Shown here: one piece after another, positions 15,156 through 30,972 of the stretch
Layout of the letters: each line of letters starts with the position of its first letter
Numbering within the stretch: position 1 is the stretch's first letter
NCBI GenBank assembly: GCA_913064945.1
Contig: CAJYAN010000005.1
Location: 124,001 to 188,000 of the forward strand
DNA from: an uncultured Gammaproteobacteria bacterium
GTDB taxonomy: Bacteria; Pseudomonadota; Gammaproteobacteria; UBA6429; Thiohalophilaceae
DNA: 64,000 nucleotides
Reading direction: 5' to 3'
Translations under genes and position numbers: made by a program
The notes under the pieces: generated by a model
The model's database searches: none
What the model was told of the DNA's origin: nothing
Seen by the model: the letters and a program-made list of their open reading frames with translations, nothing else

Positions 15156-15944
15156 TTAATACTGATAATTCCAGGCATCACTCTGCATACGCATTATGGA
15201 TGTGGCGACGATGGGGATTCGATATTCGCGATTGCCATCGGCATCGAGACTATTTAGGCAGCGATTGATAAAGCTATCACTCAGCGCACGTTCAGCGGGA
15301 GGGGTATCTGTAGTAAACATATTATTGTCATCGTGATAGACGAGCCGGTAGGCACTTTGTATAAAACGATTGGCGAAGGGAACGATAAGTTCTTTGCAAT
15401 AGGTCGTGTGGATTTTCAGCAGATTGGCGTCCTGTATATTGACACCCTGCTTGATACGTGTGGCATTTTGATAGAGTAAATTTTCGTTGGGAATGTACAG
15501 ACTGACAATACCGGAAAGGTTTTCCTGCCTGATTTTCCATTGAGGGATACTTTTGCCCCAGCCAGAATTTGTCGCGAACATGCGCGATGTCGGGTTGATT
15601 CGCTGTACTTTGACATAGCTATCAAATTCGAGACGGGCCTTTTTGATGGCGTTAACCAAAGCGAGGTTACGCTCAGTGTCGCTCGCGTTTGCTTCACTAC
15701 GTGACCCCGAGACTCGAACAAGAGAGGGGGCCAGTGCGCGAGTGAAACCGGCACGAACGGCGGTGGGAGAGGCATGATCCATCGCTGCCGCCCGCGCCGC
15801 CTCATAGGTGGCATAGTTCAGGTTAGTCTTGGCCTGATAGATAAAAACGATCTGTAACAGGCCGAGGGTGAAAAACAGGAGCAGCGTCATGATTATAACG
15901 AACTCGGTCATGGCCTGGCCGGCTTGTTTGGTGGTGTAAATCAA
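15156..15944 (-). CDS. TadE-like pseudopilin
   Basis: The 262-residue protein begins with a short basic stretch and then AGQAMTEFVIIMTLLLFF, the TadE/TadG-type prepilin signal with a glutamate at position +5-6 and a hydrophobic helix (about residues 12-33). TYEAARAAAMDHA follows, the usual TadE continuation. The rest is a periplasmic domain with no recognisable motif. TadE-like proteins are minor pseudopilins of the Flp pilus and are cleaved by a TadV-type peptidase. This is the last gene of the Tad block, 4 bases after tadD. Confidence 0.8.
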   Translation of the reverse strand: MIYTTKQAGQAMTEFVIIMTLLLFFTLGLLQIVFIYQAKTNLNYATYEAARAAAMDHASPTAVRAGFTRALAPSLVRVSGSRSEANASDTERNLALVNAIKKARLEFDSYVKVQRINPTSRMFATNSGWGKSIPQWKIRQENLSGIVSLYIPNENLLYQNATRIKQGVNIQDANLLKIHTTYCKELIVPFANRFIQSAYRLVYHDDNNMFTTDTPPAERALSDSFINRCLNSLDADGNREYRIPIVATSIMRMQSDAWNYQY

Positions 15945-15948
15945 CGGA

Positions 15949-16485
15949 CTACTTTTCGTCAGAAGGTTTGGCTTCTGGATGATTCGGGGACTTTTTCGGC
16001 GGGATAACCGTTTCCATTTTTTCTACCTCGCCGGCCTCATTATTGCCTTTGTTGTTATGTTGCATCAAATCGAGAAGTTGATCGCCGGTATTTTTTGCCT
16101 GCTGGAAGAGGGGATCATCCGCAGGGATATACTGCAGCATTTCGATATAAAGGTGTGTCGTGGCGCGTAGCGACATAATGCCCATGTTGTGCCATGCCTT
16201 GGCCATTCTAGGTTTGCGAATAACGGCCTCCTTGTAAGCGGCGATCGCCTTGCTGGCCTGATGGCTGTGTGCGTATATGTTACCTAGTCTAAACCATAAT
16301 TCAGCGTCGCCGGGTAAATCGCTGATCAGACGGGTATATTTCTTTTCCGCCAGCGGCCAGTCTTTATTCTGGTAGGCCTGTTCGGCATCACGCAAAGAGG
16401 TCGTCATATCAAGTTGTGGTTTTGTCGTTGCACAACCGCTGATGATCATCAGCAGCAACGCCCCCAATATCGATATTTTAATCAT
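15949..16485 (-). CDS. tadD: TadD-like TPR lipoprotein
   Basis: The 178-residue protein has a lipoprotein signal ending in the lipobox ISGC (lipid attachment at Cys18). Two or three TPR repeats follow (around 32-115; for example AEQAYQNKDWPLAEKKYTRL and AELWFRLGNIYAHSHQASKA), then a Lys/Glu-rich tail. TadD-like lipoproteins act as outer-membrane assembly factors (pilotins) of Tad secretins. It overlaps the DUF192 gene by 8 bases at its start, so translation is coupled. Confidence 0.8.
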   Translation of the reverse strand: MIKISILGALLLMIISGCATTKPQLDMTTSLRDAEQAYQNKDWPLAEKKYTRLISDLPGDAELWFRLGNIYAHSHQASKAIAAYKEAVIRKPRMAKAWHNMGIMSLRATTHLYIEMLQYIPADDPLFQQAKNTGDQLLDLMQHNNKGNNEAGEVEKMETVIPPKKSPNHPEAKPSDEK

Positions 16486-16837
16486 GCTGTTCAGTCCAGG
16501 TAAGTTGAAGTCCAGGTATCATCTGCATTTGTTTTGCGCGGCCGGCAGCAAGCTCAAGTACTGCCCAGGCGCCTGCACAGGCAGCGAAACGAAAAGGACG
16601 TAAGTTATGCGCCACTTTTTTAATATGGCCTTGTTTGCTAATAAAGACGACATCTATGGCCGCCGACATGCCGATGGTATGTACAGAAGGGCATGGGCTG
16701 ATCCACAGGCCTTGGTCACCGGTTAGCGGTTTTTTACCGATCAGGCCACGCATGCGTTCCCAGGCATTTGTGGTGAATAAGACCTGTGGAATATGGCGTG
16801 GTGGTGTGGTGTTGATATGGACCTGGCCAGACTTCAT
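16478..16837 (-). CDS. DUF192 family protein
   Basis: The 119-residue protein shows the DUF192 pattern: WERMRGLIGKKPL near residue 27, LWISPCPSVHTIGMSAAIDVVFIS, and ACAGAWAVLELAAGRAKQ near the end. The family forms a small beta-barrel of unknown biochemical role and is found in several Tad loci. Here it sits between tadC and tadD, with overlaps at both ends (4 and 8 bases), so it is tightly part of the operon. No signal peptide is visible. Confidence 0.85.
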   Translation of the reverse strand: MKSGQVHINTTPPRHIPQVLFTTNAWERMRGLIGKKPLTGDQGLWISPCPSVHTIGMSAAIDVVFISKQGHIKKVAHNLRPFRFAACAGAWAVLELAAGRAKQMQMIPGLQLTWTEQHD

Positions 16838-17715
16838 AGCAGTCCTTCACCAATAAATTTCATCACAATGGGAAAACCGAGCACAATAAATGTTACCGGG
16901 AAGATAAACATAATGAGCGGCGCAATAAGTTTGATCGGTGCTTCCATGGCAAGTTTCTCCGCGCGCAAAAATCGTTCGTTGCGGCGTTGTTCTGCCTGTA
17001 CTTGCAGGGTCTTTTTCATACTGGAGCCTAAACGCTCCGCCTGGATCACGGCCCTGACAAAGGTCGTGATGTCCTTGACGTCCAGCCGGTCTGACATGCG
17101 TTGCAGAGAATCGGCGCGGCTCATACCAGAGCGTATATCCCGCATGACAATGGCAAATTCATTGTGTAAGGCACCATGAGGCGCTTTTTCCATGGCCTGG
17201 GTCAAGGCGCCGGTAAAGTTAAGCCCGGCTTCAACCGCCATAGTGATGAAATCGAGATAAATAGGTAGTGCGCGGATGACTTCCTTCTCACGGCGTTTAC
17301 GTGTGTCCCGCAGCCAGATTTCCGGAAAGAAAAAACCAAGCGCCATAATAATGATGGGCCAAAGGACGCCGGGTTGTTCGATCAGATCCATCAGAATAAT
17401 ACCAAAGACCAACCAGACCAGGGCGCTGATGATGCGCAGGGCAACGAATTCCTCGGCAATGACTAAATAGCTAACGCCGGTTTGTTGCAGACGTGCCTCG
17501 ACCTTATTCAAATACTCCACTGACAGATTGCTGGTAATGTAATAATTGAAAATGCGTATTAGAGGCCAGAAGATCCTTATCCAGGGCGGCAGGGGATCCA
17601 TGTAGTCTCTATCGTCTGGCGGTACGGCCGCATTAAAGATATAGGCCGCGATTAATACCAGCAGCAGACTGGCACCGACTGAAAAGGCAGATGAATATAA
17701 TAGTATGTTATCCAT
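16834..17715 (-). CDS. tadC: Tad pilus inner-membrane platform protein TadC
   Basis: The 293-residue protein has an N-terminal membrane helix (about 5-28), a pair of helices near 107-150, and a last helix near 260-285. The T2SSF-domain cytosolic loop contains LPIYLDFITMAVEAGLNFTGAL and then RADSLQRMSDRLDVKDITTFVRAVIQAERLGSS-type sequence. It forms the assembly platform with TadB, on which the CpaF ATPase works. The final four bases overlap the DUF192 start. Order tadA-tadB-tadC is the classical one. Confidence 0.92.
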   Translation of the reverse strand: MDNILLYSSAFSVGASLLLVLIAAYIFNAAVPPDDRDYMDPLPPWIRIFWPLIRIFNYYITSNLSVEYLNKVEARLQQTGVSYLVIAEEFVALRIISALVWLVFGIILMDLIEQPGVLWPIIIMALGFFFPEIWLRDTRKRREKEVIRALPIYLDFITMAVEAGLNFTGALTQAMEKAPHGALHNEFAIVMRDIRSGMSRADSLQRMSDRLDVKDITTFVRAVIQAERLGSSMKKTLQVQAEQRRNERFLRAEKLAMEAPIKLIAPLIMFIFPVTFIVLGFPIVMKFIGEGLL

Positions 17716-17736
17716 AATATTTAATTTTCTTCATAG

Positions 17737-18597
17737 TTAAACATCAATGCTGGTGATTTTTTGTATGGCCACATAGCCAAGAAATTCCATGACCACAATG
17801 ACGCCAAGCGTTGCCCAGCCGATAGGGGTGGTAAATAGCTTACTCATGGCGACGGGTTCAATCTGAAACAGCACGACGCCCAGCAAAATCGGCAGACCCG
17901 TCATGACTTTTCCCTGTAGTCGTCCCTGTGAGGTCAGGCTGTCAATTTTACCCTCCATCGTGGCCTTGCGCCGCAGGGTGTCGGCCAGGGTTTCCATGAC
18001 TTCAATTAGATTGCCGCCAACCTCTCTGGCAATCTTAATCGCCGAGACCGCGACCTGAAAATCTGGTGCGGGCAGGCGCTTTTCCATATTCGTCAGACCC
18101 TGCTCAAGGTCAACACCAATGCGTTGTTGCCGAATCAGGAGACTGAATTCCTGGCTGAGGGGAGCGGGTTGCTCTTTCACCAGGCCCTCCAGTGCCATGG
18201 TCAGGCTGGCACCTGATTGCAGGCTACTGGAGATCATCATGAAGGCATCAGGCAGTTGAGATTCAAATTTCCTGAGACGGCGCTTGCGCATCACGCTGTA
18301 GACCCACCAGGGCAGGATGACCATACCAATGAGTGCCGCGACGGTAATAATATTGTCGCGAGAAATAAGCCAGGTGAGCAGGGGGATCAGGACAATAGCA
18401 ATGATGTTGATTAAAAACAGGCGTGCCGGGTCAACGAACATGAACATGTCTGAGAGATTGCTCATGGTGGATTCACTAAAGCTATTCTGGTATTCGGCCC
18501 AGAAGCGCCGAAAGGAATTGACCGCTAACCAGGCCAGTATCGCGGCGGTGGTAAAGACCAGACCCAGAATTATCCAGTAGAGAAGTGAGCTAAACAT
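17737..18597 (-). CDS. tadB: Tad pilus inner-membrane platform protein TadB
   Basis: The start was set at the ATG at 18597, giving [17 protein letters not shown] directly with a membrane helix and an 8-base overlap with the end of cpaF. A start 33 bases upstream would extend it into the cpaF reading region. The 286-residue protein carries helices near 10-30 and 65-105 and a T2SSF domain with SQLPDAFMMISSSLQSGASL. GGNLIEVMETLADTLR follows, and C-terminal helices end the protein. It pairs with TadC as the platform of the Flp pilus. Confidence 0.92.
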   Translation of the reverse strand: MFSSLLYWIILGLVFTTAAILAWLAVNSFRRFWAEYQNSFSESTMSNLSDMFMFVDPARLFLINIIAIVLIPLLTWLISRDNIITVAALIGMVILPWWVYSVMRKRRLRKFESQLPDAFMMISSSLQSGASLTMALEGLVKEQPAPLSQEFSLLIRQQRIGVDLEQGLTNMEKRLPAPDFQVAVSAIKIAREVGGNLIEVMETLADTLRRKATMEGKIDSLTSQGRLQGKVMTGLPILLGVVLFQIEPVAMSKLFTTPIGWATLGVIVVMEFLGYVAIQKITSIDV

Positions 18598-20245
18598 TGC
18601 GGAAGATCTCCATGTCGACGCCGATACCACGTTGTTTCAGGTTTTCATAAAACTCGGGAATTTGCCCGGTCGGCATATACTTACCCGTGACACGCCCCTC
18701 ACTATCAAAACCATCCTGCTGAAAACGAAAAATATCCTGCATTTGTACGACACCGGTTTCCATACCGGTAATCTCGCTGATGTGGGTGACTCGACGACTA
18801 CCATCAGGGAAACGGCTTTGTTGCACGACGATATTGATCGCAGAGGCAATTTGTTCACGGATCGCCTGGGCGGGTAGCTCCATACCGGCCATTAGTACCA
18901 TGACTTCGAGACGCGAAAGCATGTCACGTGGGGTATTGGCGTGAGCGGTAGTGAGCGAGCCATCATGACCGGTATTCATGGCCTGCAGCATATCCAGCGC
19001 CTCGGCACCACGGCACTCGCCGACGACTATCCTGTCAGGCCGCATACGCAGACAGTTTCGTACCAGATCACGAATCGTAATCTGACCCTTGCCTTCGATA
19101 TTCGGTGGACGTGATTCAAGCGAGACCAGATGGGGTTGGGCAAGTTGCAACTCAGCGGCGTCTTCAACAGTCACGACGCGCTCGCCCTTGGGAATATAAT
19201 TGGACAACACGTTAAGCAATGTGGTTTTACCGGAGCCGGTGCCGCCGGAAATAATGACGTTTTGCTTGTTGACGACAGTCATTTTCAGGAAGTCCATCAT
19301 CGCGGGGCTGATGGCACCATAGTTGACGAGGTCGCGATCGGTGAGTTTTTTCTTGGAGAATTTACGTATGGTAATGCATGGCCCTTTCAACGCCAGCGGT
19401 GGGATGATGGCGTTGACACGCGAACCATCCTTGAGTCGGGCATCGACCATGGGTGAGCTTTCGTCAATACGCCGACCCAGAGGTGAGATAATACGTTCAA
19501 TAGTCGACATGACGGCATCGTGGTCACTATACATGACGTCGGTTTTCTCAAGCTTACCGTTTCGTTCGATATAGATATCATCAAAGGAGTTAACCATGAC
19601 CTCTGTGATGGACTCATCATCAAGCAAGTCCTCCAGGCAGCCGAGGCCAATGGTTTCATTGAGGACATCTCTGGCCAGGATATCCCTGTTGATATGGTCA
19701 GGAAGTCCTTCACCTATGGCATCAAGGATTTCACTAATGAGTCCTTCGACGTTATTGCGTAGTTGCTTTTCATCCCAGTTGGCGATATCCGTGCGGCGCA
19801 AATCCATGTTGGATAGCAATTCCTGATGCACGTGATTACGCCACATTAGTACCTCACTCCTCAGGATGGAGTTGGCATTACGAATTTCCTGGGTGTTGAG
19901 GATTTCCTGGCTCTGTATGCGGCGTTTATTTTTTTCCTGTTCTTCGTATTTGCTGGCATCGATAGAAATAAGATAATTACCGACACTGACGGTATCATCG
20001 CCTGACAATGGTCCTGCCTTGCCTGATATTTTACTGCCATTTAGTAGTGTACCGGCACCATCACTTCTATCTTCAATGTAGATGCCATCATTTGTCTGGA
20101 GTATCTCCGCATGAACGGGGGCAATACTCCAGCCGCGTAACTGCACCAGGTTATCGCGTGACTTGCCTATGGTGCAGTGTGTTAGCACACAACGTAAATC
20201 AGAAACGGAAGAGTTGTTTTTTGTTTTAACGCTAATATCAAACAT
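18590..20245 (-). CDS. cpaF: FHA-domain CpaF/TadA secretion ATPase
   Basis: The 551-residue protein joins two modules. Residues about 20-97 are an FHA domain: the CTIGKSRDN glycine-arginine-type start, the conserved histidine in APVHAEI (His45), [13 protein letters not shown] and [14 protein letters not shown]. After a charged linker, residues about 160-545 are a CpaF-type hexameric ATPase with Walker [10 protein letters not shown] (334-342), the acidic VTVEDAAEL, Walker B RIVVGE (405-410) and the His-box TTAHAN (432-437). It powers Flp pilus assembly. Ordinary CpaF/TadA proteins lack FHA, a phosphothreonine-binding module, so phosphorylation-dependent control is inferred. Confidence 0.95.
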
Positions 20246-20254
20246 AACGATCGC

Positions 20255-21604
20255 CTATTCTAAAAGGTCGCGGTTACCGGAATCCTGGTGTATCCAGTCC
20301 TTAAATTCTGTAACAGTGCGAAATTTTTTGATCATTTTCTCGCGTTGCGAAATCATGTCTTTATTGTATTGAGAATCGGCATCAATGACCTGCGGGGTGA
20401 CAAAAATAACCAGCTCGGTCTTTTTGTCGGTGCGATCATTGTTCCTGAAAAGGGCGCCGAGGATAGGGATATCCATTAGATACTTAACACCATTGACATT
20501 TTTGCTAAGGTCAGAACTGAGCAGGCCTGAAATGACCATTGTCTGTCCTTCTTTCATACTGAGATCGGCATTGGAGCGGCGGGTAAAAAATCCCGGGATG
20601 CCATTAATGGGTTTAATGGATTGATCGGGCGCGCTGATCTCTGTTTCAAGGTGGGCAGTAATGTTGCCTTCACGATCGACGGTGGGCGCGATGTTAAGTT
20701 TCACACCGAACTCTTCAAACGTGACGTTGCTTTGTCCCTGGGCGTTGGTGGTCGGTAACGGAATTTTACCCCCGGCCAGAAATTCCGCCTTACCGCCGCT
20801 GCGTGTCGCCAGTGTCGGCGAGGCTAATACCAGGGCGTCACCATCACTTTCCATCAGGTTCAGGCGGGAGGTCATGGAGGTAACAATGCCGAAATAACCA
20901 AAGGAGGGACTTTGCACTGGTGCGGCAATGGTGGTGCCATCAATAGTGACAGAGACCGGACCGGATTGACGCGGTGCCCATACGCCACCTGTGGCAGGTC
21001 CATTTATACTGGTCTGCCAGTTAATACCCAATTGATCCAGATGGTTGCTGCTGAATTGCGTGATCTTCACTTTCATCACAATCATTTTGTCGTATGAAGC
21101 TTCAGTACGTTGCGCAATATCAAGAATGTTAGGATATACTTTTTTAATAGCGTCAACTTTAAGGCTGGCCTCTTTGCCCAGCATGCCGTCAATCACGGGT
21201 CGCCCACCAACAGAACGGATCTCGACACCACGTACCCCCGTCAGCAAGGCGCGCAATTCTTTTACTGCGGTACTGGGATTCGACTTTGAAATTTTGACAA
21301 GGTAGTCACGCTCCCAGTGTTTCTTCCCCCATAGGTGGATAATCGTCTCACCCGGGGCCTCTGCGAGGATAATGAGCTGGCCCGATTTGGTAATGGAAGT
21401 GCTGAGTAATTTTCCATTGCCCACTGCGACCCTGTCGATTTGTCCGATTTTAAGGACATGAACTTCGCCGGCATATAAATCCAGTATACGTTGCGGATTC
21501 CTGGCAAGTGCCTGCTGATTAAAGGTGAACAGACCGGCGACAATGAGGAGGAGCGGCATCGACATCAATCTAAAATTACTTTTGTGGTTATTTTTCATAG
21601 TCAT
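20255..21604 (-). CDS. cpaC: Flp pilus outer-membrane secretin CpaC/RcpA
   Basis: The 449-residue protein has a signal peptide (MKNNHKSNF... to ALA), with a possible start two codons in. An N-terminal CpaC/BON-like domain contains DLYAGEVHVLKIGQIDRVAVGNGKLLS (around 42-68), and RGVEIRSVGGRPVIDGML follows. The C-terminal secretin domain includes SPTLATRSGGKAEFLAGGKIPLP, IAPTVDREGNI, and GLLSSDLSKNVNGVKYLMDIPILGALF, the secretin signature. It forms the outer-membrane ring for the pilus. It lies between cpaB and the ATPase gene. Confidence 0.94.
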   Translation of the reverse strand: MTMKNNHKSNFRLMSMPLLLIVAGLFTFNQQALARNPQRILDLYAGEVHVLKIGQIDRVAVGNGKLLSTSITKSGQLIILAEAPGETIIHLWGKKHWERDYLVKISKSNPSTAVKELRALLTGVRGVEIRSVGGRPVIDGMLGKEASLKVDAIKKVYPNILDIAQRTEASYDKMIVMKVKITQFSSNHLDQLGINWQTSINGPATGGVWAPRQSGPVSVTIDGTTIAAPVQSPSFGYFGIVTSMTSRLNLMESDGDALVLASPTLATRSGGKAEFLAGGKIPLPTTNAQGQSNVTFEEFGVKLNIAPTVDREGNITAHLETEISAPDQSIKPINGIPGFFTRRSNADLSMKEGQTMVISGLLSSDLSKNVNGVKYLMDIPILGALFRNNDRTDKKTELVIFVTPQVIDADSQYNKDMISQREKMIKKFRTVTEFKDWIHQDSGNRDLLE

Positions 21605-21613
21605 CTCTCTTCG

Positions 21614-22906
21614 TTACTGCACGGTTATTTTTTCGACGGTGGCAACACCATTTTTACTGTTGCCGCCGGAGAGGAAATCGATAAAGCGCGTCCTGGAAGC
21701 AAAGTTTGCCTGACGTGCTTTTTTAGAAGGCAGGCCGAAGCTTTTCGCATCCTCATCACTAATAGGCTCATCGGCAACCTTACCGATGACTTCACCACTT
21801 TCACTGACAACAGTACCATCTGCCGTTTGCTTGCCAATGACCTTGCCGGTAGCATCAATTACCGAACCGTCTTCCTGTACCGTACCGATAACATTGCCGT
21901 TGGCATCGGTAACAACCTTATTGACGCTACCTAACTGGTTACCTTGTGCATCAACAATTTTGCCATCCGCCGTCTGTTGGCCAATAACGTTGCCGCGGTT
22001 ATCAACGACCTTTCCGTCGCTGCGCAGGACACCGACGATTTTTCCATTCTTATCCCTGACGACCTTTGGTGGTGGTGTCGCTTCTGCGGCAACCTGCTGT
22101 GCCAGCGAAAGAATATCTGAAGGCTGTACATGAGAAAAATTGGCGAGCTCGGCATCGGCACGATTACGCAAGACGGCGCTGAGTCGACCGGCTGATTTGG
22201 CGGCGAGCAGCAGGGCCGATTCTTTCGCGGTGAGATTAATCGTAATGTTGGAATAGCCCCTACCGTCACGCGCATAAGCGACGGACATGCTCGCCTGTAC
22301 TTTAGGTTCGAGACTGGTGCCTGTGGCGAGGACCTCCACATTTTGCAGGAGTGGAAAGACAACATCACCGCCGGTGCCGCCAACATATTTGGAAGACATC
22401 GTGACATACAGGTCTATTTTATTTCCCGGTTGCAACATACCGGCATTTGAACTCAGTTCATCGACCGTAATGGTGACGGCTCGACGCCCCTTATTCAGTA
22501 TGTCTGAGAAATCCTGACGGGCAATACCAGAGACATGTGTCCAGAGGAGCGCACGCCCCGCCTTGATGGGTTCGATAAGTCGGCGGCCTTCAATGCGAGA
22601 AAATTGCGAAGGTGAAATCGCCTGCGAGTGGACATAGCTTTCCGGGATGCTGCGTAAAGACATATTTGCCGAGTTGACAACAGCGCCGCTGGGTAAGTCT
22701 CTACTGGAGACAACCACCTTGACCATGCGTTTGCTGGGTTGCTGGTAGGCCATGCGGAGTTGTGCTTCACGCAATTCCAGGTACTTGATCGCCATGAAAG
22801 TTGCCAGGGCAGCCAGACCCAGGGCGATCAACAGGAGTCGCAATGGTTTATTGGCACGCAGAATTGCCATCGCAGCAGTGAGTTTATTTTGAGTGGTCAT
22901 AGGCAC
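21614..22906 (-). CDS. cpaB: Flp pilus assembly protein CpaB/RcpC with repeat insert
   Basis: The 430-residue protein has an N-terminal membrane helix (about 22-42), an SAF domain (about 62-125, VVVSSRDLPSGAVV), and the RcpC/CpaB domain with AVTITVDELSSNAGMLQPGNKIDLYVT (143-169). Residues 281-376 are made of about six short repeats of the form V-V/I-D-x-x-G-x-V-I-G-x-x-x-x-D-G. A short C-terminal region with FIDFLSGGNSKNGVATVEKITV follows. CpaB is a periplasmic component that stabilises or gates the secretin. The repeat block is not part of standard CpaB proteins. Confidence 0.92.
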   Translation of the reverse strand: MPMTTQNKLTAAMAILRANKPLRLLLIALGLAALATFMAIKYLELREAQLRMAYQQPSKRMVKVVVSSRDLPSGAVVNSANMSLRSIPESYVHSQAISPSQFSRIEGRRLIEPIKAGRALLWTHVSGIARQDFSDILNKGRRAVTITVDELSSNAGMLQPGNKIDLYVTMSSKYVGGTGGDVVFPLLQNVEVLATGTSLEPKVQASMSVAYARDGRGYSNITINLTAKESALLLAAKSAGRLSAVLRNRADAELANFSHVQPSDILSLAQQVAAEATPPPKVVRDKNGKIVGVLRSDGKVVDNRGNVIGQQTADGKIVDAQGNQLGSVNKVVTDANGNVIGTVQEDGSVIDATGKVIGKQTADGTVVSESGEVIGKVADEPISDEDAKSFGLPSKKARQANFASRTRFIDFLSGGNSKNGVATVEKITVQ

Positions 22907-22955
22907 GCTTCTTATCGTTGTATTAAGTAAGTTATCGGAAATTTTTTCTAGTACG

Positions 22956-23219
22956 TTAGTCAGGTATTTCAGCTACCGACATGGAATAGGAATACGCCTC
23001 ATAGTTTCGTTTCAGAACATTGATAAGATATTCAACCAGAGTCGGATTGCTGGTATGTGGCTGGGCGACCAGTTCAAATGCATTGTTGGAGTGTTCATTG
23101 TCACCAATGATCTGGTTTTCATTGAGTGGCAGTGGCACCGCAAAGGCAAAAAAAATCGCAACACAGACCACCAGATACTCCACAGATGCCTGGCCTTTTA
23201 CTTTTTTGATCAAGTTCAT
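22956..23219 (-). CDS. Small Flp/TadE-like pseudopilin
   Basis: The 87-residue protein begins MNLIKKVKGQASVEYLVVCVA, a prepilin-type signal: a basic leader, glycine at the cleavage site, glutamate and tyrosine at +5/+6, then a hydrophobic helix to about residue 28. The remaining 55 residues are polar and unlike the Gly-rich tail of major Flp pilins. It is probably a minor pilin or pseudopilin. It lies between cpaB and a gene for a secreted protein of unknown function, on the same strand. Confidence 0.75.
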   Translation of the reverse strand: MNLIKKVKGQASVEYLVVCVAIFFAFAVPLPLNENQIIGDNEHSNNAFELVAQPHTSNPTLVEYLINVLKRNYEAYSYSMSVAEIPD

Positions 23220-23227
23220 ACTGTCAC

Positions 23228-23908
23228 CTAGAATAGTGATTTTTTAGTGGTCTGGTTTAACTGGATATAGCTGGTATTGCCAATGGTTCGCAAGACGATG
23301 TCGATGGCCTTGTTGCCCTTCTGGAAGGCAAGCACGTGTCCGGCGCGCGAGACAACGTTATCCATAACAAGATTCCAGCCTTTGTGCTGATAATGGCCGA
23401 TATAGTAACGGCTGTTGAATTTGAGACTTTGCTTATTGTGTGCCAGCAGGACACGTGACTGGCCATTGGTATCACTGGAAAGGATATCGTCAATGACACT
23501 GCTGCCGGGTGGCAAAGGTACACCAAGGGCAACATAATCCTGTTTGACCGGTTGCTCAGGAATTTTCATGATGCTGATACGACCATAAGCATGCTCATTG
23601 GCATCTTGCTGTATTTGGATGGTAATGAAATCCTTATTGTGCTTATGACTGATTTGTTGCCAGGGTCCGTACTGGTTTTCAACATATTCGTCATGCCACT
23701 GGTTGCGATAGTATTCGAGTATGCGCTGCATGGAGAGATGGCTGCTAAAGACACGGATGTCCATGGGGATGCCATGGTAGCTAAAGGAATTCGCCAGATG
23801 GGTCACCTTGACGGTGGGAGGCAGCGGTACGTCAGGCCAGCCGGCTTTCGCGGACAGGCTGCACACTGACAGGAACAGGAGTATATAAATACGCAATCTT
23901 GTTGGCAT
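23228..23908 (-). CDS. Secreted protein of unknown function in the Tad locus
   Basis: The 226-residue protein has a clear Sec signal peptide (hydrophobic stretch 9-19, likely cleavage after SAKA). I do not recognise a family. Two halves look related: each begins D/G-VPLPP followed by V and a run of beta-strand-like sequence, then a motif with tyrosines and tryptophan (RILEYYRNQWH around 66-76; SRYYIGHYQHKGW around 172-184). That suggests a duplicated domain. It is 2 bases from the TadE-like gene upstream and 8 bases from the small pseudopilin downstream, so it is cotranscribed with pilus genes and may act in the periplasm with them. Confidence 0.75.
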   Translation of the reverse strand: MPTRLRIYILLFLSVCSLSAKAGWPDVPLPPTVKVTHLANSFSYHGIPMDIRVFSSHLSMQRILEYYRNQWHDEYVENQYGPWQQISHKHNKDFITIQIQQDANEHAYGRISIMKIPEQPVKQDYVALGVPLPPGSSVIDDILSSDTNGQSRVLLAHNKQSLKFNSRYYIGHYQHKGWNLVMDNVVSRAGHVLAFQKGNKAIDIVLRTIGNTSYIQLNQTTKKSLF

Positions 23909-23910
23909 GA

Positions 23911-25131
23911 TTAAAACATCCCCAACAAAGTATTGAGCAGACCCGAGTCATAGGCCTTGTTACTGCGGGCCTCTTTTTCCTTGTAACTACAGGTGCCAAA
24001 GCGACAATCCGGTGTCTCGCGATTACCACGAATCGTATTGGTGTCTACATAACCGGGGATAAACTTGTCGCTGGCCAGTTCCGGAGCGATGGAAAATTTT
24101 CGCAGCGTCATGGTGCTCTGTGTGCCCGAGGTGAGACAACCGGTGAGAAAGCATCTACTAACAATCCCCCCCTGGCTGATGGGCGGTAAAGGGTTCAGAT
24201 TGGCCGAGACCAACCACTGCACGGGTGCAAAAAACGGTCGCAGCCAGCTACTCGGGACACGTTTTTCAGTGCGACGTTGAAACATCTCAGCGCTCTGAGC
24301 AGACCACGTGTCAGCAAGAATACCGCCACGGGCGCTAATGTTGACTTCAGATAGTTTATCAAACGGCGCATTGAACGGTGTGTTACTTTCGGGGCCATAT
24401 CCCGGCGTCTTGCTGTTGTCCAGATTAGCAAGCTTGAATGAGACAGTATTTGAGTAAAGATTGTCCTTTTTGAATTCCTGGTCGGGCACGAAAGGTATCT
24501 CGCCTGTCAAATTGTTTAACGCAGATTCGTCAAAGATGGTCACGCCGCCGAGCTCAGACAGGTTGTTGGCCTGTTTGGCGAACCAACGGTCAACCGCAAG
24601 CTGTATCCTGAAGGGGGTCTGGATCAGTGAGGCAATCTGGTCAATGGTATCCAGAGCATTTGACTGTGCGATGCGATGGCCTTCTCGGTAGGCATCTTTA
24701 TTGTTCAGGCTGGCAGCACGTAGTAAGGGCTGGTCGCGGTAGTCATGCCAAAAGCTTCGCATATCTTTATCAGTGAGGATTTGTGGGCTTGGGCTGGTTT
24801 TAATTGGGTTGGTGCCCGCCTCAAATTCACGCAGTACCGTTTCGTTCTGTAATGCATCATAGCTTTTACGCGGTAAAGTCCCTTTATTGACGGTATCATT
24901 GGCCATGGCGTTATTGTCCGGGAAATAGACAGTCCTCTCCCAGGCCATGTAGCGTGCCGAAGCGACGGCAGTCTGTTTAATATCGATGACCTTGCCAACC
25001 AGGGGCACGAGGAGAAATATGGGTAAGAGTACAAACGCCGCCGCAATATTAAATTCAGTCATTGCCTGACCCCGCATCAGCCGGTGGCAAGGCGATAAGT
25101 CATTGATGCTGTTGGCGAGGACTGTTTGCAT
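23911..25131 (-). CDS. TadE/TadF-like pseudopilin, long form
   Basis: The 406-residue protein carries RGQAMTEFNIAAAFVLLPIFLLVPLVGKVIDI around residues 20-51, a TadE-type prepilin signal and helix, then SARYMAWERTV, common in long TadE-like proteins. A start at Met19, directly before RGQAM, would give a more ordinary leader. The large periplasmic part has no recognised motif; two cysteines sit in the RCFLTGCL segment, and there is another pair near the C-terminus (CRFGTCSY), which could form disulfides. It follows the TadG-like gene after 4 bases. Confidence 0.78.
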   Translation of the reverse strand: MQTVLANSINDLSPCHRLMRGQAMTEFNIAAAFVLLPIFLLVPLVGKVIDIKQTAVASARYMAWERTVYFPDNNAMANDTVNKGTLPRKSYDALQNETVLREFEAGTNPIKTSPSPQILTDKDMRSFWHDYRDQPLLRAASLNNKDAYREGHRIAQSNALDTIDQIASLIQTPFRIQLAVDRWFAKQANNLSELGGVTIFDESALNNLTGEIPFVPDQEFKKDNLYSNTVSFKLANLDNSKTPGYGPESNTPFNAPFDKLSEVNISARGGILADTWSAQSAEMFQRRTEKRVPSSWLRPFFAPVQWLVSANLNPLPPISQGGIVSRCFLTGCLTSGTQSTMTLRKFSIAPELASDKFIPGYVDTNTIRGNRETPDCRFGTCSYKEKEARSNKAYDSGLLNTLLGMF

Positions 25132-25135
25132 GGTC

Positions 25136-27361
25136 TTAATTATTAACAGGTTGCAAATTGGTGACGATGCCGATTTTTTTCAGATAGTTTTTCATCCCAT
25201 CCTTATCCATTTGTCGTGAATCTGGCGAGCGGCTGGCGAGTATGGCGTTTTGCAAATCCCTCACCAGTCTCGCATCTTGTGTATAGAGAGACCATTTTCG
25301 TAGTTCGTTGTCGACGGGCACCATATGCGCCTCCCAGTAGGGGCTGAAGGCGCTCCCCGGGTCGTTGTCATCATTCGGATTTTTATAAATAATGCGTGCC
25401 GTCGCCAGGGCATACATTGCCGGTTGATCGGAGCTGTCATCTTCGAGGAGTAAACGCATGGCATCTTCCACCAGCTTGCCAAAGACATCGCCCACACCGC
25501 CAGCGGCCGTCGTCACGGCTTTATTGAGGACGCCATTAAAACTGTCGACGACCCTCGTGATTTGGCCACGCATCGGTTCTGGTATGTAATTAAAACCGGT
25601 CGGTGTTGACAGTTTGTATTTGTTGGAAAATTTATCGAGTTCCTGTTTGGCGTAGTCACGGGCCTGCTTGTTGGCGTATTCACCGCCGCTTTCCGGCATT
25701 GAGTTCTCAATACCACCACTCCCCTGGGTTTGCAGGTTGAAGCGGTTTACGTCTGTGGCGTTGGTCTTGGTAATGACCTGTTCACTGGTGCGGAGCTTAT
25801 TGATGTTTTTTCGGACCCCAACAATAAATACGGGCCCCTTGAGAGCGTCGGCATTGAGTGTGCCGTGATCGAGCTCGGCGGCTCCGTAATAATGCGGGTC
25901 TACCGAGGTAAACGGCGCAATGCCGGCGTAGTTCGCCTTGGGGCGTTTCCCCAGGTTGCCTGTCGTGGCGGCTTCGAATGCGGCAACCGGTTGCAGAATA
26001 GGATTTAATGACCAGGCATCTCCATAGAGCTTGATCATGCCGGCATCCGCCCATTTATACCATTGGGTTCTACCAAGGCTTTTATTACCGGCGAGCTCTG
26101 CGGAGGCGCCGCCCAGCGGGATGCTCAGAAAGGTTCGTAAGTCGATGCCGAGATGATCGGTGACGGTTTTAAAATTAAAGCCGACACAACCAAAAAAACA
26201 GAGCTGGGCATTAAAGCCCCAGTCTTCCAGACCAAAGCGTGTCGTATCCATTGATGACCAACCAAGGGAACCTTTATGTTCAGCAGGTGCCGAGGTTAGA
26301 TCCTTTAGCATGTTGGCGGGTGCCACATCAAGATAACGCAGTGCCGTGCCGCCACGGGTGGCATAGCCTACCGACAGGTTGCCATTAATATCATAGCCAC
26401 CCCTGGCACCTGAGAGCTTTTCTCTAAGCATATTCACAGTACGAAAGTTAATATCGATACCAAAGTTGCCCTTGCTGGGGTCGTTCGGATTGACTGAACG
26501 CCGATCGCGCGTCCATGTGTCCCGTGAGTCGTTGACGATGGCGACATAACGCTGCTTTGCCTTTTCCTCGCCAGAACAGAAGCGGGTACCAATACCGGTG
26601 TTTTTTACTTTTTGAATTTCGGGGTCATAAGTTCCATAGTTATCCGGTTCGCAGGCAGCGCTGGCGCTACTACTATAATCGCCGAGGGCGACGGTATAGC
26701 GACTGAAGCTGAGGAATTGTTCGATCTGGCTAAAAATGGCGGCAAGGGCACCAAAGTTCGAGACGGTGGCATCCGTGGCATTGAGTTTTACCACCTTGGG
26801 GATGGTTTTCCATTGCTGTTCGAGGGTGGCGACACGCATGAGTTGTTGTGAGGCACCGAGGATATGGTTCAAGGCATAGTTAGAATAGGTCAGAATAGTA
26901 CCGAATAACTCGGTCATGGCTCGACCGGAGGTTTCATAGACGGCATTGAGGCCACGCGAAATATTTTGCAGGATGGTGGCCATTATATTTCCGACGACCG
27001 GTACCAGCCGTAGTCCTTGCAGACCGAGTGATCGGCCTTCCCCCGCCAGCTTAAAGCGTGCCCCCCATGAGCTAAAGGCAGAAAACTGGCCAATGGCCAC
27101 TTCATTGGCAATCATGGCGCGATTGGTGTAGGCCGCATAATTCATATAGCGCGCCGAAAGTGTGGCCGCACTATAGGCAGCCGCATCGGCGGCATTCTGC
27201 AGCTCCATCTTCTGCCGGGTGAGTTGTCCGGTATTGAACATGATCAGAATGCCAACAATGACGACCGCAATGAAAAAGTACACAAAGATCATAGACTGAC
27301 CCGTTTGGTACTTGTGTGTATTGAAAGATCGCATGGTCGTGGGTTGCGTGACGCAAGCCAA
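25136..27361 (-). CDS. TadG-like pilus assembly protein
   Basis: The 741-residue protein has the Tad-domain N-terminus: GQSMIFVYFFIAVVIVGILIMFN (membrane helix about 22-43), then the hallmark LQNAADAAAYSAATLSARYMNYAAYTNRAMIANE. TadG-like proteins are large pseudopilin-like components anchored in the inner membrane. The chosen start is a TTG with GAGG 6 bases upstream; an ATG nine codons in (27334) is possible. The long periplasmic region has cysteines in pairs (for example LCFFGCVGF) and no other domain I recognise. It is the first large gene after the pilin. Confidence 0.82.
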   Translation of the reverse strand: MACVTQPTTMRSFNTHKYQTGQSMIFVYFFIAVVIVGILIMFNTGQLTRQKMELQNAADAAAYSAATLSARYMNYAAYTNRAMIANEVAIGQFSAFSSWGARFKLAGEGRSLGLQGLRLVPVVGNIMATILQNISRGLNAVYETSGRAMTELFGTILTYSNYALNHILGASQQLMRVATLEQQWKTIPKVVKLNATDATVSNFGALAAIFSQIEQFLSFSRYTVALGDYSSSASAACEPDNYGTYDPEIQKVKNTGIGTRFCSGEEKAKQRYVAIVNDSRDTWTRDRRSVNPNDPSKGNFGIDINFRTVNMLREKLSGARGGYDINGNLSVGYATRGGTALRYLDVAPANMLKDLTSAPAEHKGSLGWSSMDTTRFGLEDWGFNAQLCFFGCVGFNFKTVTDHLGIDLRTFLSIPLGGASAELAGNKSLGRTQWYKWADAGMIKLYGDAWSLNPILQPVAAFEAATTGNLGKRPKANYAGIAPFTSVDPHYYGAAELDHGTLNADALKGPVFIVGVRKNINKLRTSEQVITKTNATDVNRFNLQTQGSGGIENSMPESGGEYANKQARDYAKQELDKFSNKYKLSTPTGFNYIPEPMRGQITRVVDSFNGVLNKAVTTAAGGVGDVFGKLVEDAMRLLLEDDSSDQPAMYALATARIIYKNPNDDNDPGSAFSPYWEAHMVPVDNELRKWSLYTQDARLVRDLQNAILASRSPDSRQMDKDGMKNYLKKIGIVTNLQPVNN

Positions 27362-27442
27362 ACACTGCCTCTTCCCTAAGGCATATATAATCGTGCTACT
27401 AAAATGATTAAGCTGGTGTTAGGACGCCATTCGCACAGACGA

Positions 27443-27700
27443 TTAGTTGCCACCGCCGGCATTCCCGCCAAAATCTTTGAGACCGGATTTGCCGCTGCCG
27501 ACGGCGCTGTTAATCGCGCTGCTATCAACTTTGTCAGTGCCCTTGTCGCCCGCAAGCTCCTTAGTCATGTTGCCGACCTGCGTGCGTACGGTTTTGCCGA
27601 AAATGGTGTAGACGGCGATGGCGGCAATGGCGATAAGCGCGACAATAATAATGTACTCGGTCATGCCCTGGCCGGTAATTTTTCTAGGCAGTTTTTGCAT
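27443..27700 (-). CDS. flp: Flp family type IVb major pilin
   Basis: The start was set at the ATG at 27700, because GGGGAA lies 7 bases upstream. Upstream frame extensions give an implausible N-terminus. The 85-residue prepilin has a 10-residue leader MQKLPRKITG, then QGMTEYIIIVALIAIAAIAV: glycine before the cut, glutamate at +5, tyrosine at +6, then the hydrophobic helix. This is the classical Flp signature. The rest is a polar tail rich in Lys, Asp and Gly ending GGNAGGGN. It forms the pilus fibre. An 81-base gap separates it from the TadG-like gene, so it may be expressed at a higher level. Confidence 0.93.
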   Translation of the reverse strand: MQKLPRKITGQGMTEYIIIVALIAIAAIAVYTIFGKTVRTQVGNMTKELAGDKGTDKVDSSAINSAVGSGKSGLKDFGGNAGGGN

Positions 27701-27842
27701 CTCTAGTTTCCCCATGGCTTTAAGTCCGTATATAGTTGTTTGTTCCCCTAGTGTCTTTACGATATTACCTGATGATACCGTTAATGGCATCATTCTAAAG
27801 TATGAAATTGGCCAGTTGTGGCTGATAAATACCATTATCTTA

Positions 27843-27872
27843 ATTAATGGTAAGCTGGAAGTATCTCGTCAA
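27843..27872 (-). promoter_or_regulatory. Possible sigma-70 promoter for flp
   Basis: On the minus strand, TTGACG (27872-27867) and ATTAAT (27848-27843) are separated by 18 bases. Transcription would begin near 27836 and give a 5' UTR of about 135 bases before the pilin start. The -35 box lies just upstream of the ribosome-binding site of the divergent response-regulator gene, so binding at one promoter would affect the other. Confidence 0.3.
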
Positions 27873-27885
27873 AGTGGAGGCCGGG

Positions 27886-28542
27886 TTGAGAATTTGCGTA
27901 ATTGACAAGTATCCGCTATCTGTCGAGGGTATGTCATTGATCCTGAGACAGATGGAGGGCGTGACCGATATTCAGACCCTGACCGAGCCGTTGGCGGCAC
28001 TTGAATTTCTGCACTACCATCCGGATATTGACCTGGTGATTGTCGACCTCTTCATGCCGGATATGGATGGTGAACAGTTTGTACGCAGTCTACAGCAGTC
28101 CGAGCTGGATATTGCGGTCATCACGATGTCGGCAACACAGGATATGGTGAGACTTAAAAGCGTTCTGGACCTGGGTGTTATGGGCGTTATACCCAAGTGG
28201 TCTGAGCGTGATCAGTTGTTTGATGCCCTGAAACAGGTGATGGCAGGTGAAATATATATTCCGGAAGTCATGCGTCCGCAATTGCGTCGCCTGACAAGGA
28301 ATCCACTGAGACCACTGGATTCCAATATTAATGCCCTGGGAGTGACACGCCGACAGCGTGATGTCCTGAAACTAGTGGCGAAGGGACATTCTAACAGGGA
28401 GATCTCGTTGATGCTGAATCTCACCGAGCACACGATTAAATCACACCTGTCTGCGATCTATACATTGATCGGCGCCAAGAACAGGGCGGATTGCCTGCAA
28501 AAGGCTTACCGCCTGGGGCTGCTTAAGTTACCCGTGACCTGA
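27886..28542 (+). CDS. LuxR/NarL-type response regulator
   Basis: The start was set at a TTG with GGAGG 5 bases upstream, which places the protein at LRICVIDKYPLSVEGM. The 218-residue protein has a receiver domain (about 1-120). The phosphoacceptor aspartate lies in LVIVDLFMPDMDG, with TMSAT and the Lys-containing GVMGVIPKWS. The GerE/LuxR helix-turn-helix follows (about 155-210: VTRRQRDVLKLVAKGHSNREIS and TEHTIKSHLSAIYTLIGAKNR). It is divergent from the Flp pilin gene and convergent with the heme-sensor gene. No histidine kinase sits next to it. Control of the pilus promoter is inferred from position. Confidence 0.92.
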   Translation: MRICVIDKYPLSVEGMSLILRQMEGVTDIQTLTEPLAALEFLHYHPDIDLVIVDLFMPDMDGEQFVRSLQQSELDIAVITMSATQDMVRLKSVLDLGVMGVIPKWSERDQLFDALKQVMAGEIYIPEVMRPQLRRLTRNPLRPLDSNINALGVTRRQRDVLKLVAKGHSNREISLMLNLTEHTIKSHLSAIYTLIGAKNRADCLQKAYRLGLLKLPVT

Positions 28543-29418
28543 CTATTCTTTCCCCAGCATTTTCATCGAGTTAACCAGACTACGGCGCAGACGATTGACA
28601 GAGGTAATTAGCACGCCAACTTCATCGTGACTTTTCACTTTCAGTTCTGGCGTCTCGAGCTTACCCAGACTGATCACTTCCGCATGGCTGGAAATTTTAC
28701 GGATGGGGTTAAGCACAATTATGCTGAGCAGGATATTGAGAATAAGAATAATCAGACCAAAGATGATGGCGGTTGACAGCATAAAGGTCCGAAAGGCGGT
28801 ATCGGCGCGACTTAGCGCCAGTTTCATGGGTACGCTGACGATCTGTGCGCCGACGGTTTCGCCCATTTTCCAGCCAAAGCCGTGAGAAGTACCATATCGG
28901 GCGAGCATACTGGGAGGTGCGGCCTCAACGGTACTATGGCAGGCCAGACAACTTTGTTTCTTAATGGTGATAGGGCGCGCCATATAAAGATTGTTACCGG
29001 TGGCAGACTCATGGGTGCCAATCAATTCATGCTTTTGTTTGTTATTGCGGAACGTCTCGACAATCTCCGTTTCCCATTCGGTGGCGCGTGAGGCCGGGTT
29101 CGTGGGATTGAGTGTCGCCTCTTTGTATTTATAGTCGGGATAATGTTGACGCAGGCGCTTGATATTCTGGTGGGCAGCATAGGCAGGCACCATTTGTGGG
29201 ACAAAGGTATTGGCGATGTCGGTAATCAGCAGGGGGCGAATTTCTTCAATGGTATAGCCGCGCACGGCCAGGGCGCTTTCCATGATCAGTCCGGCCATTT
29301 GCAGGACCTCCTCTCTTGCATTCTGATGCAGGATGCGTTGAGAAACATAACCGGATAAGGCCATCCCCAGTATGGCGACGGAAATCAGAATCATATTGAA
29401 TTTGACGCGCAGGCCCAT
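28543..29418 (-). CDS. Tll0287-like (DUF3365) membrane heme sensor with HAMP domain
   Basis: The 291-residue protein has membrane helices at about 6-24 and 212-235, enclosing a periplasmic domain with a single c-type heme motif CLACH (157-161), NNLYMARPI just before it, and ATEWETEIVETFR. This is the DUF3365/Tll0287-like domain, a heme-based or PAS-like sensor. After the second helix a HAMP segment continues (NPIRKISSHAEVISLGKL and SHDEVGVLITSVNRLRRSL). There is no kinase, cyclase or methyl-accepting domain, so the output must be passed to a partner. It is directly convergent with the response regulator, with stop codons adjacent. Confidence 0.85.
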   Translation of the reverse strand: MGLRVKFNMILISVAILGMALSGYVSQRILHQNAREEVLQMAGLIMESALAVRGYTIEEIRPLLITDIANTFVPQMVPAYAAHQNIKRLRQHYPDYKYKEATLNPTNPASRATEWETEIVETFRNNKQKHELIGTHESATGNNLYMARPITIKKQSCLACHSTVEAAPPSMLARYGTSHGFGWKMGETVGAQIVSVPMKLALSRADTAFRTFMLSTAIIFGLIILILNILLSIIVLNPIRKISSHAEVISLGKLETPELKVKSHDEVGVLITSVNRLRRSLVNSMKMLGKE

Positions 29419-29460: not shown

Positions 29461-30972
29461 TCAGAAGCAGGATTTGGACTGTTGGATAAAGTCGTTTTTT
29501 TCCTGTTCATCTTCAATGTGTTGACTGAGCATATCACAAAGAACATCCTCGCTGGACGCCTGCCTTGCATAGCGTTTAACAATTTCAGTAGCGATTGGAC
29601 CGATGAGATTGATGAGCATACTGCCAAGACAGAGTAGTTGCGCTTCCGTGAAGGCGGGCTTATCGGGTACGGCGACCTGAGGGAGGCTTGTCACGGTGTT
29701 GATGCTCGACATTTCTGAGGCATAACGATTTTTGAATGCCCTGCGACTTTCACTGTCGGGCAGGTAATCATACAGGCGCAGGCATAAGGTAGAGAGATCC
29801 GGTGATGTATTGGCAAACTTTGGCACCAGAATACTGGCGATAGGTCCAACATGAAGGGTCATTTCGGTGACGATTTCGGTCAGCTGTTGTTGACTTATCG
29901 CGGCTGGCGTTTGTCGCGCAGAGACCGGCTGTGGTGTCGTTGGCGTTGAGTGAATGTAGTTGGGCATATCGCCCCCGGCGGATAAGGTGCTCAGATCCAG
30001 GATAAATTCCTGTGCCGTTTGATATCGGTCATCCACGTCCCGGGCGAGCAATTTGCCGAGAATACGACTCAGTTCTGCCGGGAAATCTGCCGGTAGTGTC
30101 AGGTCTGGTGGATCGGCATAAAGCACGGAATGGATAATCGTCGCCGCCTGATCGCCGTGAAAGGGGCGCTTGCCCATGATCATTTCATAGATGATGTTGC
30201 CCAGAGCCCAGAGATCACTGCTGGCAACGACCTGCTTACCGGCGAGTTGCTCAGGCGACATGTAGGCGACTGTCCCCAGGCCGACACCCGTTGAGGTCAT
30301 ACTGATGCCGCTGACCTTGGCCACACCAAAATCCAGTAGTTTGACGACATTATTCTGATCCAGCATCACATTGGCGGGTTTGATGTCGCGGTGAATGATT
30401 CCCTGCGCGTGTGCCGCCTGTAGTCCTGAGGCGATCTGTAGCGTGATATTCATGATTTCAGGCCACGCTAAAGTGCCACCGGCGAGAAGCCTTTCCAGGG
30501 TCTGTCCTTTATAATAAGGCATGGCGATATAGAGCTGTTTGTCGTCAGTCTCGCCGATATCAAACAGGCTGCAAACGTTGGGATGTTCCAGCTGGGAGAC
30601 AGCCCTGGCTTCATTAAAGAAACGCTGCCGGTAATTCTCTTCATTACTCAGGTGTGAAGGCAGGCACTTGATGGCGATATTGCGTTGCAGGCGTGGATCT
30701 TTTGCTTCATAGATAAGCCCCATACCACCAACACCTATCTGACCGACGATTTCATAGGGACCGATTTTCTTACCCAGCATGCTGGTTTGAGCCTGCTGTG
30801 GCTTGCCGCTGGGTGATTCAATCTGCTCTGCCTGAGAGAGGTGTGTATTGACCAGTTCTCGAAGCTCAGCATCATCCGCGCAGGCCTGGTTAAGATAGCC
30901 CTCACGCTGCGGAACCGGCAGGTTCAGGCAGGTCTTGAAAATATTCTGTGCAGTCTGGTTTTTCGTCATCAT
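29461..30972 (-). CDS. Hanks-type Ser/Thr protein kinase
   Basis: The 503-residue protein starts with a short helical region (8-50) of the type seen before many bacterial kinases. A complete kinase domain follows (73-330): glycine loop QIGVGGMG (78-85), Lys102 in AIKCL, HRDIKPAN (194-201), DFG (214-216) and GTVAYMSPEQ (233-242). No membrane helix follows, so it is cytosolic. Residues about 362-416 and 442-497 contain two related copies of a helical module (VGPIASILVPKFA and IGPIATEIVKRYA). It lies beyond the pilin of the Tad locus, whose ATPase carries an FHA domain. It is followed by the heme sensor gene on the same strand. Confidence 0.95.
   Translation of the reverse strand: MMTKNQTAQNIFKTCLNLPVPQREGYLNQACADDAELRELVNTHLSQAEQIESPSGKPQQAQTSMLGKKIGPYEIVGQIGVGGMGLIYEAKDPRLQRNIAIKCLPSHLSNEENYRQRFFNEARAVSQLEHPNVCSLFDIGETDDKQLYIAMPYYKGQTLERLLAGGTLAWPEIMNITLQIASGLQAAHAQGIIHRDIKPANVMLDQNNVVKLLDFGVAKVSGISMTSTGVGLGTVAYMSPEQLAGKQVVASSDLWALGNIIYEMIMGKRPFHGDQAATIIHSVLYADPPDLTLPADFPAELSRILGKLLARDVDDRYQTAQEFILDLSTLSAGGDMPNYIHSTPTTPQPVSARQTPAAISQQQLTEIVTEMTLHVGPIASILVPKFANTSPDLSTLCLRLYDYLPDSESRRAFKNRYASEMSSINTVTSLPQVAVPDKPAFTEAQLLCLGSMLINLIGPIATEIVKRYARQASSEDVLCDMLSQHIEDEQEKNDFIQQSKSCF

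Follow-up and report, generated by a model that had tools for sequence, protein, structure and literature searches.

Here, we describe a Tad pilus locus whose motor ATPase carries an N-terminal FHA domain (FHA-CpaF), encoded in a 64,000-nucleotide stretch (the window) of the genome of an uncultured gammaproteobacterium of the family Thiohalophilaceae (GCA_913064945.1, contig CAJYAN010000005.1, positions 124,001 to 188,000; host genome of 3.2 Mb in 22 contigs). Pfam searches of the open reading frames (ORFs) of the window place the locus on the minus strand at 15156-27835, with genes in the order Flp-like prepilin, TadG-like, TadE-like, exported protein, CpaB, secretin, FHA-CpaF, TadB, TadC, DUF192, TPR and TadE-like minor pilin (Table 1). 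Beyond the prepilin lie a NarL-type response regulator on the plus strand and then, both on the minus strand, a Tll0287-HAMP protein and a Hanks-type kinase. A preliminary description of this DNA had paired the kinase with the FHA domain as a phosphothreonine switch that recruits or switches the motor. The FHA-type locus is best regarded as a Tad subtype, in which two features stand out: the FHA domain has lost the residues that read phosphothreonine, and no TadZ (CpaE) was detected.

The FHA domain that had been predicted on the pilus ATPase at 18590-20245 is present, on the minus strand, the plus-strand translation being interrupted by stops (PF00498, residues 24-89, E 1.5e-9; score 38.6 bits, cut-off 20.7), and is followed by a T2SSE match at residues 201-476 (210 bits). 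In an AlphaFold model, residues 1-98 take an FHA fold (Ki67 FHA, Z 16.6, root-mean-square deviation 1.6 over 97 residues; EmbR, Z 15.9) and residues 130-551 that of a CpaF motor (9e24, Z 39.0). Residues 102-122 of the linker have a predicted local distance difference test score below 50, with helices at 118-149, 159-180 and 187-199. The NCBIfam TadA model TIGR03819 matches with 344.8 bits, under its cut-off of 373.15. The protein thus has the features of class III CpaF: a Tad/CpaF motor, an N-terminal FHA fold, and a disordered linker and helical bundle between them. Motors of this kind are already described, as class III CpaF (PMC12019362) and as KilF (PMC8460266). Class III CpaF of the Achromobacter type has the FHA domain, flexible linker, helical bundle and motor in identical order and is described as mostly betaproteobacterial; its FHA domain is said there to bind phosphothreonine peptides, whereas in the window's clade the contacts are gone, and neither CpaE nor TadZ occurs in the main text of that paper (PMC12019362). 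KilF of the Myxococcus Kil system is likewise a Tad-like ATPase with an N-terminal FHA domain, the account of that system mentioning a single ATPase (PMC8460266). It differs in that the two Myxococcota motors counted here keep the Arg, Ser and Asn residues, KilF itself lying outside the alignment. One Myxococcota FHA motor (L147:322-4736) is directly followed by two further FHA-containing genes and resembles the Kil system. In all, FHA domains were found on Tad motors at 111 non-duplicate loci (nine duplicates were omitted from counts and trees), so the fusion cannot be a chance reading. These include one locus (L195) with a weak FHA match (E 0.024) to a badly shortened domain.

FHA domains contact phosphothreonine peptides through an Arg, a Ser and an Asn residue. 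Alignment of FHA-CpaF to the FHA domain of Rv1747, with which an alignment of 30 relatives agrees, places Lys28, Ala42 and Ala64 at these positions. The preliminary description had named a lack of these residues as counting against its model, and on this point the result goes against it. Residues were counted in 104 of the 111 FHA motors, grouped by clade (L181 and L192-L197 lie outside the alignment). Among the 76 motors of the main proteobacterial clade, which is that of the window, the Arg position holds Arg in 7, Lys in 57, Ser in 10 and another residue in 2; Ser is kept in 7 and Asn in none, and no motor keeps Ser and Asn together. Gly38 (61/76), Trp39 (60/76), Gly78 (72/76) and Pro79 (75/76) are conserved in the same clade, and therefore the domain seems to be constrained in another way rather than decaying. 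A clade marked by a compact kinase has Lys at the Arg position in 8/8 motors and both Ser and Asn in 8/8. All three residues are kept in 8/18 motors of a Planctomycetes-Verrucomicrobia-Chlamydiae (PVC)-type group, 13 of which keep Ser and Asn (the group includes records titled only 'bacterium', plus L151, placed elsewhere on the tree), and in 2/2 Myxococcota motors. Within the window's own genome, 9 of 11 FHA domains keep all three residues, and the CpaF FHA domain and one other keep none. Judged from these residues, the motor FHA domain appears to be retained and constrained, but to be no ordinary phosphothreonine reader. A split into intact and degenerate FHA domains has also been reported for type VII secretion, as described in PMC4925161 and PMC11217815.

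The second feature is the lack of TadZ. In control loci whose motors have no FHA domain, tadZ is the gene immediately upstream of cpaF and has the same orientation, with centres 0.9 to 1.6 kb apart; at the window's locus the secretin gene occupies this slot. A profile search found TadZ at 33 of 38 non-FHA loci and at none of the 111 FHA loci, 97 of which have at least 3 kb of upstream sequence. Of the five non-FHA loci with no match, L139 and L171 lie on contigs that begin within cpaF, L184 lies on one that stops 1.2 kb upstream, and L190 and L191 have partial motors. The profile was built from 15 TadZ genes found in this analysis, so that hits at those 15 loci arise by construction; the other 18 of the 33 adjacent TadZ genes lie outside the profile set, the weakest scoring 137 bits. 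None of the 36 genomes with FHA motors only holds a full TadZ by profile search (best match 112 bits, to the MinD-like part alone), which rules out an unlinked TadZ in these genomes within the reach of the 15-gene profile. No TadZ was found in the window's genome by the same search (best match 61 bits, at positions 134-303 only). A full TadZ was present in 14 of 17 non-FHA genomes, most of which supplied the profile.

TadZ can nevertheless be available in the same cell, since 13 of 43 named FHA genomes also hold it. The named-genome search yielded 21 TadZ genes above 180 bits in 14 genomes, 20 of which adjoin another cpaF (the FHA profile, run on three of these neighbours, found no FHA domain; the others were judged by match start). 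One TadZ gene (G721:C3) has no motor in the 20 kb stretch that holds it. Two genomes (G082, G123) hold both kinds of locus, with TadZ beside the non-FHA motor, and an apparent exception in G709, a TadZ gene beside an FHA motor, was dismissed when the adjacent motor proved to be non-FHA. As described in a 2026 structural paper, the Cpa system of Caulobacter, a TadZ-type Tad system, shares with the window's locus the secretin, CpaB, CpaF, two platform proteins and Flp pilin; there CpaE rings the motor, six CpaE dimers being modelled as a ring around the CpaF hexamer, whereas the window's genome has no TadZ by profile search (PMC13170226). That paper calls CpaE ubiquitous in the Tad machine (PMC13170226), and TadZ is elsewhere portrayed as a hub for recruiting further Tad components (PMC6668835). 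Searches of open-licence papers yielded no report of TadZ loss in the FHA-CpaF class, nor of Tad loci without TadZ.

Trees of the motors, from which the partial motors L190 and L191 were omitted, place this exclusion at the level of clades. The TadZ and FHA states need two changes in a quick tree of 149 motors and one in a careful tree of 48: the history is essentially that of one ancient swap between FHA and TadZ, retained even by cells that also possess TadZ, and not of many parallel swaps. Two Bdellovibrionales loci (L167:9083-11344 and L170:9146-11305) encode CpaF motors that begin with a fused ATPase domain of the MinD/TadZ type. These fused motors form one clade with the FHA motors (support 100/99, careful tree) and fall outside the FHA motors in the best tree, where the branch holding FHA motors alone has support of 79/81 and is not decisive.

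We interpret the locus as a TadZ-less, FHA-type Tad pilus in which the FHA domain would act as a phosphate-independent dock and the kinase and sensor as a separate module timing piliation, and we put the probability of this interpretation at just under one half (about 0.48). The six FHA domains of the motor hexamer would replace TadZ in tethering the motor to the machine's inner-membrane part, by contacting a putative protein partner independently of phosphate. This role is suggested because a hexamer carries six FHA domains, no TadZ was found, and a MinD/TadZ-type domain is fused at the same position in relatives. EssC of the type VII system, whose FHA domains have no phosphothreonine site and contact EssB, provides a precedent for a degenerate FHA domain on a secretion ATPase; as described, it resembles FHA-CpaF in the loss of that site and differs in being a membrane-bound, FtsK-type ATPase with tandem FHA domains (PMC4925161, PMC11217815).

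The same absence of TadZ could arise if the FHA domain were a structural relic or a minor stabiliser, the role of TadZ being filled by another gene of the subtype, such as that for DUF192, or not needed. Three genes are signatures of FHA-type loci compared with TadZ loci, namely those for DUF192 (55/66 against 1/31), an exported protein (54/66 against 0/31) and a TadE-like protein (56/66 against 0/31), and the clade-level nature of the exclusion and the badly shortened domain of L195 also fit a relic. The domain-specific conserved residues and the retention of FHA across 111 loci speak against it, as does the MinD/TadZ-type domain that occupies the position of FHA in two relatives. DUF192 itself is missing from 11 of the 66 FHA loci, nine of them PVC-type, and these also have no detected TadZ. 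We regard this explanation as unlikely, though it deserves to be kept in view.

The kinase encoded at 29461-30972, beyond the pilin, was also correctly predicted as a complete Hanks-type enzyme; it lies on the minus strand, matches PF00069 with 175 bits and has its catalytic residues, with Lys102, His194-Arg195-Asp196 (HRD) and Asp214-Phe215-Gly216 (DFG) invariant in 11 aligned sequences. Its fold is PknB-like (Z 34.4) in a comparison that does not cover the C-terminal region, for which a Pfam search returned no named family. The gene lies 9.2 kb from cpaF, with the response regulator and the Tll0287-HAMP protein between it and the pilin, and because the regulator points the other way, the kinase does not belong to one operon with tad genes. 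In all five readable genomes of the family (G000, G029, G033, G036, G009), which span four genera, the tad locus is headed by an orthologue that has both the N- and the C-terminal extension. Three further family genomes (G030, G031, G034) have a motor match but end before the locus head, and the link in G009 is inferred across two contigs, the second being L218, on which the last 60 bases of the first recur and the last 100 do not. Outside the family, related kinases stand at the locus head in G275 and L096.

The expectation that the kinase co-occurs with FHA-CpaF thus holds at the five readable family loci and these two others. Across the rest of the main clade the kinase is uncommon: it is found at 6 of 57 loci that have 9 kb or more of upstream sequence and at 5 of 19 that have 12 kb or more, although some kinases may be missed, most named loci ending about 10 kb upstream, near the distance of the window's kinase. 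The 11 PVC-type loci with 9 kb or more upstream, all of them short of 12 kb, yielded none. A kinase wherever FHA-CpaF occurs is ruled out by these counts, and its absence from the PVC-type group, despite more reader residues there, argues against a fixed nearby kinase partner. At non-FHA loci with at least 9 kb upstream the count is 0/28, 27 of these having TadZ.

The regular companion of the kinase is the sensor: all 13 loci examined that encode this kinase type have a Tll0287 protein next to it. Five of the 13 pairs have no tad genes in the stretch, namely those of contigs L220-L223 (6 to 13 kb each) and L226, which is a second copy in the window's genome, beside an extracytoplasmic function (ECF) sigma factor. 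Kinase and Tll0287 sensor are thus a regular unit that also exists without pilus genes. In two places, the head of the G029 locus (L016:866-4960) and a contig of G074 (L219:17-6540), two different kinases lie close together beside the Tll0287 sensor. NarL-type regulators were found at the locus head in G029, G033, G036, G225 and G278 and on the same contig in G009, and none was detected beside flp in G275 and L096. We propose that the kinase and Tll0287-HAMP sensor form a separate signalling module placed beside the locus, which would set when pili are made, most simply by way of the adjacent NarL-type regulator and not through a mark read by FHA; the kinase target is putative. Hanks kinases with transcription factors as targets are known, one being PknS, whose target EcfK controls type VI genes (PMC13147305). 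A route by way of the neighbouring regulator is no less likely than a phosphothreonine switch, and is the simplest, if unproven, guess.

A module of this kind might also be a chance neighbour with no role in the pilus, as could be argued from pairs that occur without tad genes, in the same genome and elsewhere, and from the orientation of the pair, which is inverted in the window relative to its relatives. The linkage persists, however, in five readable family genomes over four genera and in two other lineages, despite that inversion, and the chance of a kinase within 12 kb, from kinase counts per genome, is about 3-7% per genome, and about 5-7% for genomes of the family. We consider a chance association improbable.

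In type VI secretion, the PpkA-PppA-Fha set places a kinase and an FHA protein at one machine locus, and the preliminary description compared the window's locus with the PpkA and Fha of that set: the kinase would phosphorylate a Tad component on threonine, and the FHA domain of CpaF would bind the mark, so that the motor is recruited or switched. The likeness lies in the shared locus; the difference is that at the window's locus the reader residues are replaced and no phosphatase was seen by motif. Linkage of kinase and FHA-CpaF in the family and two outside lineages, its absence from non-FHA loci and a sister group with Ser and Asn in its FHA domains and a compact kinase at five of five readable loci all accord with that model. 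Against it, all three expected contacts are replaced in the motor FHA domain, the available stretch shows no kinase for most motors of this clade (51/57 with at least 9 kb upstream, most ending near 10 kb; 14/19 with at least 12 kb), and the regular partner of the kinase, away from tad genes too, is the sensor. In addition, a search by motif alone found no PP2C-like gene at eight loci, that of the window included, using motifs that do recognise the PP2C of L227 elsewhere in the genome. For the window's locus the phosphothreonine switch is thus unsupported, and we consider it distinctly improbable.

Several points weigh against a phosphate-independent dock in place of TadZ, with signalling kept separate. 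The exclusion between FHA and TadZ is nearly one evolutionary event, and therefore the large counts are not independent. Because the TadZ profile was built on the window's class alone, it could overlook a diverged TadZ in PVC or Myxococcota loci, and at least three other genes differ between FHA- and TadZ-type loci, any of which could carry the role of TadZ. The fused domain of the Bdellovibrionales motors scores only 132 (L167) and 123 (L170) bits against the TadZ profile, over the ATPase half, which is not far above MinD-like proteins (up to 112 bits); calling it TadZ therefore relies in part on its position. A Lys in place of Arg might retain weak phosphate binding. The binding partner of the FHA domain stays putative, as does the target of the kinase, and tethering is a step that we infer. 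Finally, kinase-tad linkage above chance, with no kinase at the 28 non-FHA loci, leaves room for a direct role of the kinase in the machine.

The separate gammaproteobacterial branch whose FHA domains keep Ser and Asn has a compact kinase (ORFs of 271-308 residues) divergent at the locus head in 5/5 loci with enough sequence. A sixth such locus, L181, has an ORF of 358 residues, its FHA residues lying outside the tabulated set. One genome (G049) has a single PF00069 match over threshold, and the only gene there that matches the window's kinase lies at this tad locus. On residues and gene neighbourhood, a kinase working with a phosphothreonine-reading FHA domain is plausible in this clade; if the idea of a phosphothreonine switch holds anywhere in Tad pili, it would be in the compact-kinase branch, and perhaps in Myxococcota. 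At the loci of G082 and G094 (L080, L085/L086) the compact kinase overlaps the end of a gene for a membrane protein of 671-718 residues, which by eye looks like an apolipoprotein N-acyltransferase with an extra C-terminal part.

Table 1. Genes and domains of the FHA-type Tad locus and its flank, in positions of the window.
Feature	Coordinates	Strand	Evidence
FHA-CpaF, class III Tad motor ATPase, 551 residues	18590..20245	-	Pfam FHA 24-89, T2SSE 201-476; predicted model and fold matches
FHA domain, residues 1-97 of FHA-CpaF	19955..20245	-	Alignments to relatives and Rv1747 FHA, clade counts
Hanks-type Ser/Thr kinase, 503 residues, N- and C-terminal helical regions	29461..30972	-	PF00069 at 73-320, 175 bits; PknB fold Z 34.4
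Tll0287-like sensor, CLACH motif, HAMP, no recognised output domain; kinase partner	28543..29418	-	PF11845 141.6 bits, HAMP 32.6 bits
NarL/LuxR-type response regulator, divergent from pilin gene	27847..28542	+	PF00072 and PF00196; found in several relatives
Flp-like prepilin	27443..27835	-	Flp_Fap E 0.016 (below cut-off); position; 38-70% identity to relatives
TadG-like pilus assembly protein	25136..27361	-	PF13400 40.2 bits
TadE-like protein, typical of FHA-type loci	23911..25131	-	56/66 FHA loci, 0/31 TadZ loci; no Pfam match
Exported protein of unknown family, typical of FHA-type loci	23228..23908	-	54/66 FHA loci, 0/31 TadZ loci; signal peptide judged by eye
RcpC/CpaB	21614..22906	-	PF16976 75.4 bits
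Secretin RcpA/CpaC	20255..21604	-	PF00263 136 bits
Platform protein TadB/CpaG	17737..18630	-	PF00482
Platform protein TadC/CpaH	16834..17715	-	PF00482
DUF192 protein, 119 residues, signature gene of FHA-type loci	16478..16837	-	PF02643 58.8 bits; 55/66 FHA loci, 1/31 TadZ loci
TadD-like TPR lipoprotein	15949..16485	-	TPR families
TadE-like minor pilin	15156..15944	-	PF07811 42.2 bits

Among the other genes of the locus, the C-terminal near-repeats of CpaB (21614-22906) match 5-fold and 4-fold beta-flower families. Elsewhere in the window's genome, one contig (C6; L229:1711-7022) encodes in a row a HEAT-repeat Hanks kinase, two motors that by eye resemble PilT and PilU, and an FHA protein that keeps Arg, Ser and Asn, placing a kinase and an intact FHA domain beside type IVa retraction motors. 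On another (C9; L227:2935-7386), genes for a kinase, a PP2C phosphatase and two residue-intact FHA proteins follow one another, a full set of writer, eraser and readers.

Taken across the family of motors, these data suggest two Tad architectures, one with a TadZ ring and one in which the FHA domain of the motor replaces TadZ, possibly by way of a TadZ-motor fusion. The FHA domain would mostly be a phosphate-independent dock, and one gammaproteobacterial branch would have kept most reader residues and gained a compact kinase dedicated to it. We hold this broader scheme tentatively, as somewhat short of an even chance. 'FHA' in an annotation does not imply control by phosphorylation. A large clade with no detected CpaE offers a natural experiment on the anchoring of a pilus motor, and in several genomes the two kinds of Tad system occur side by side.

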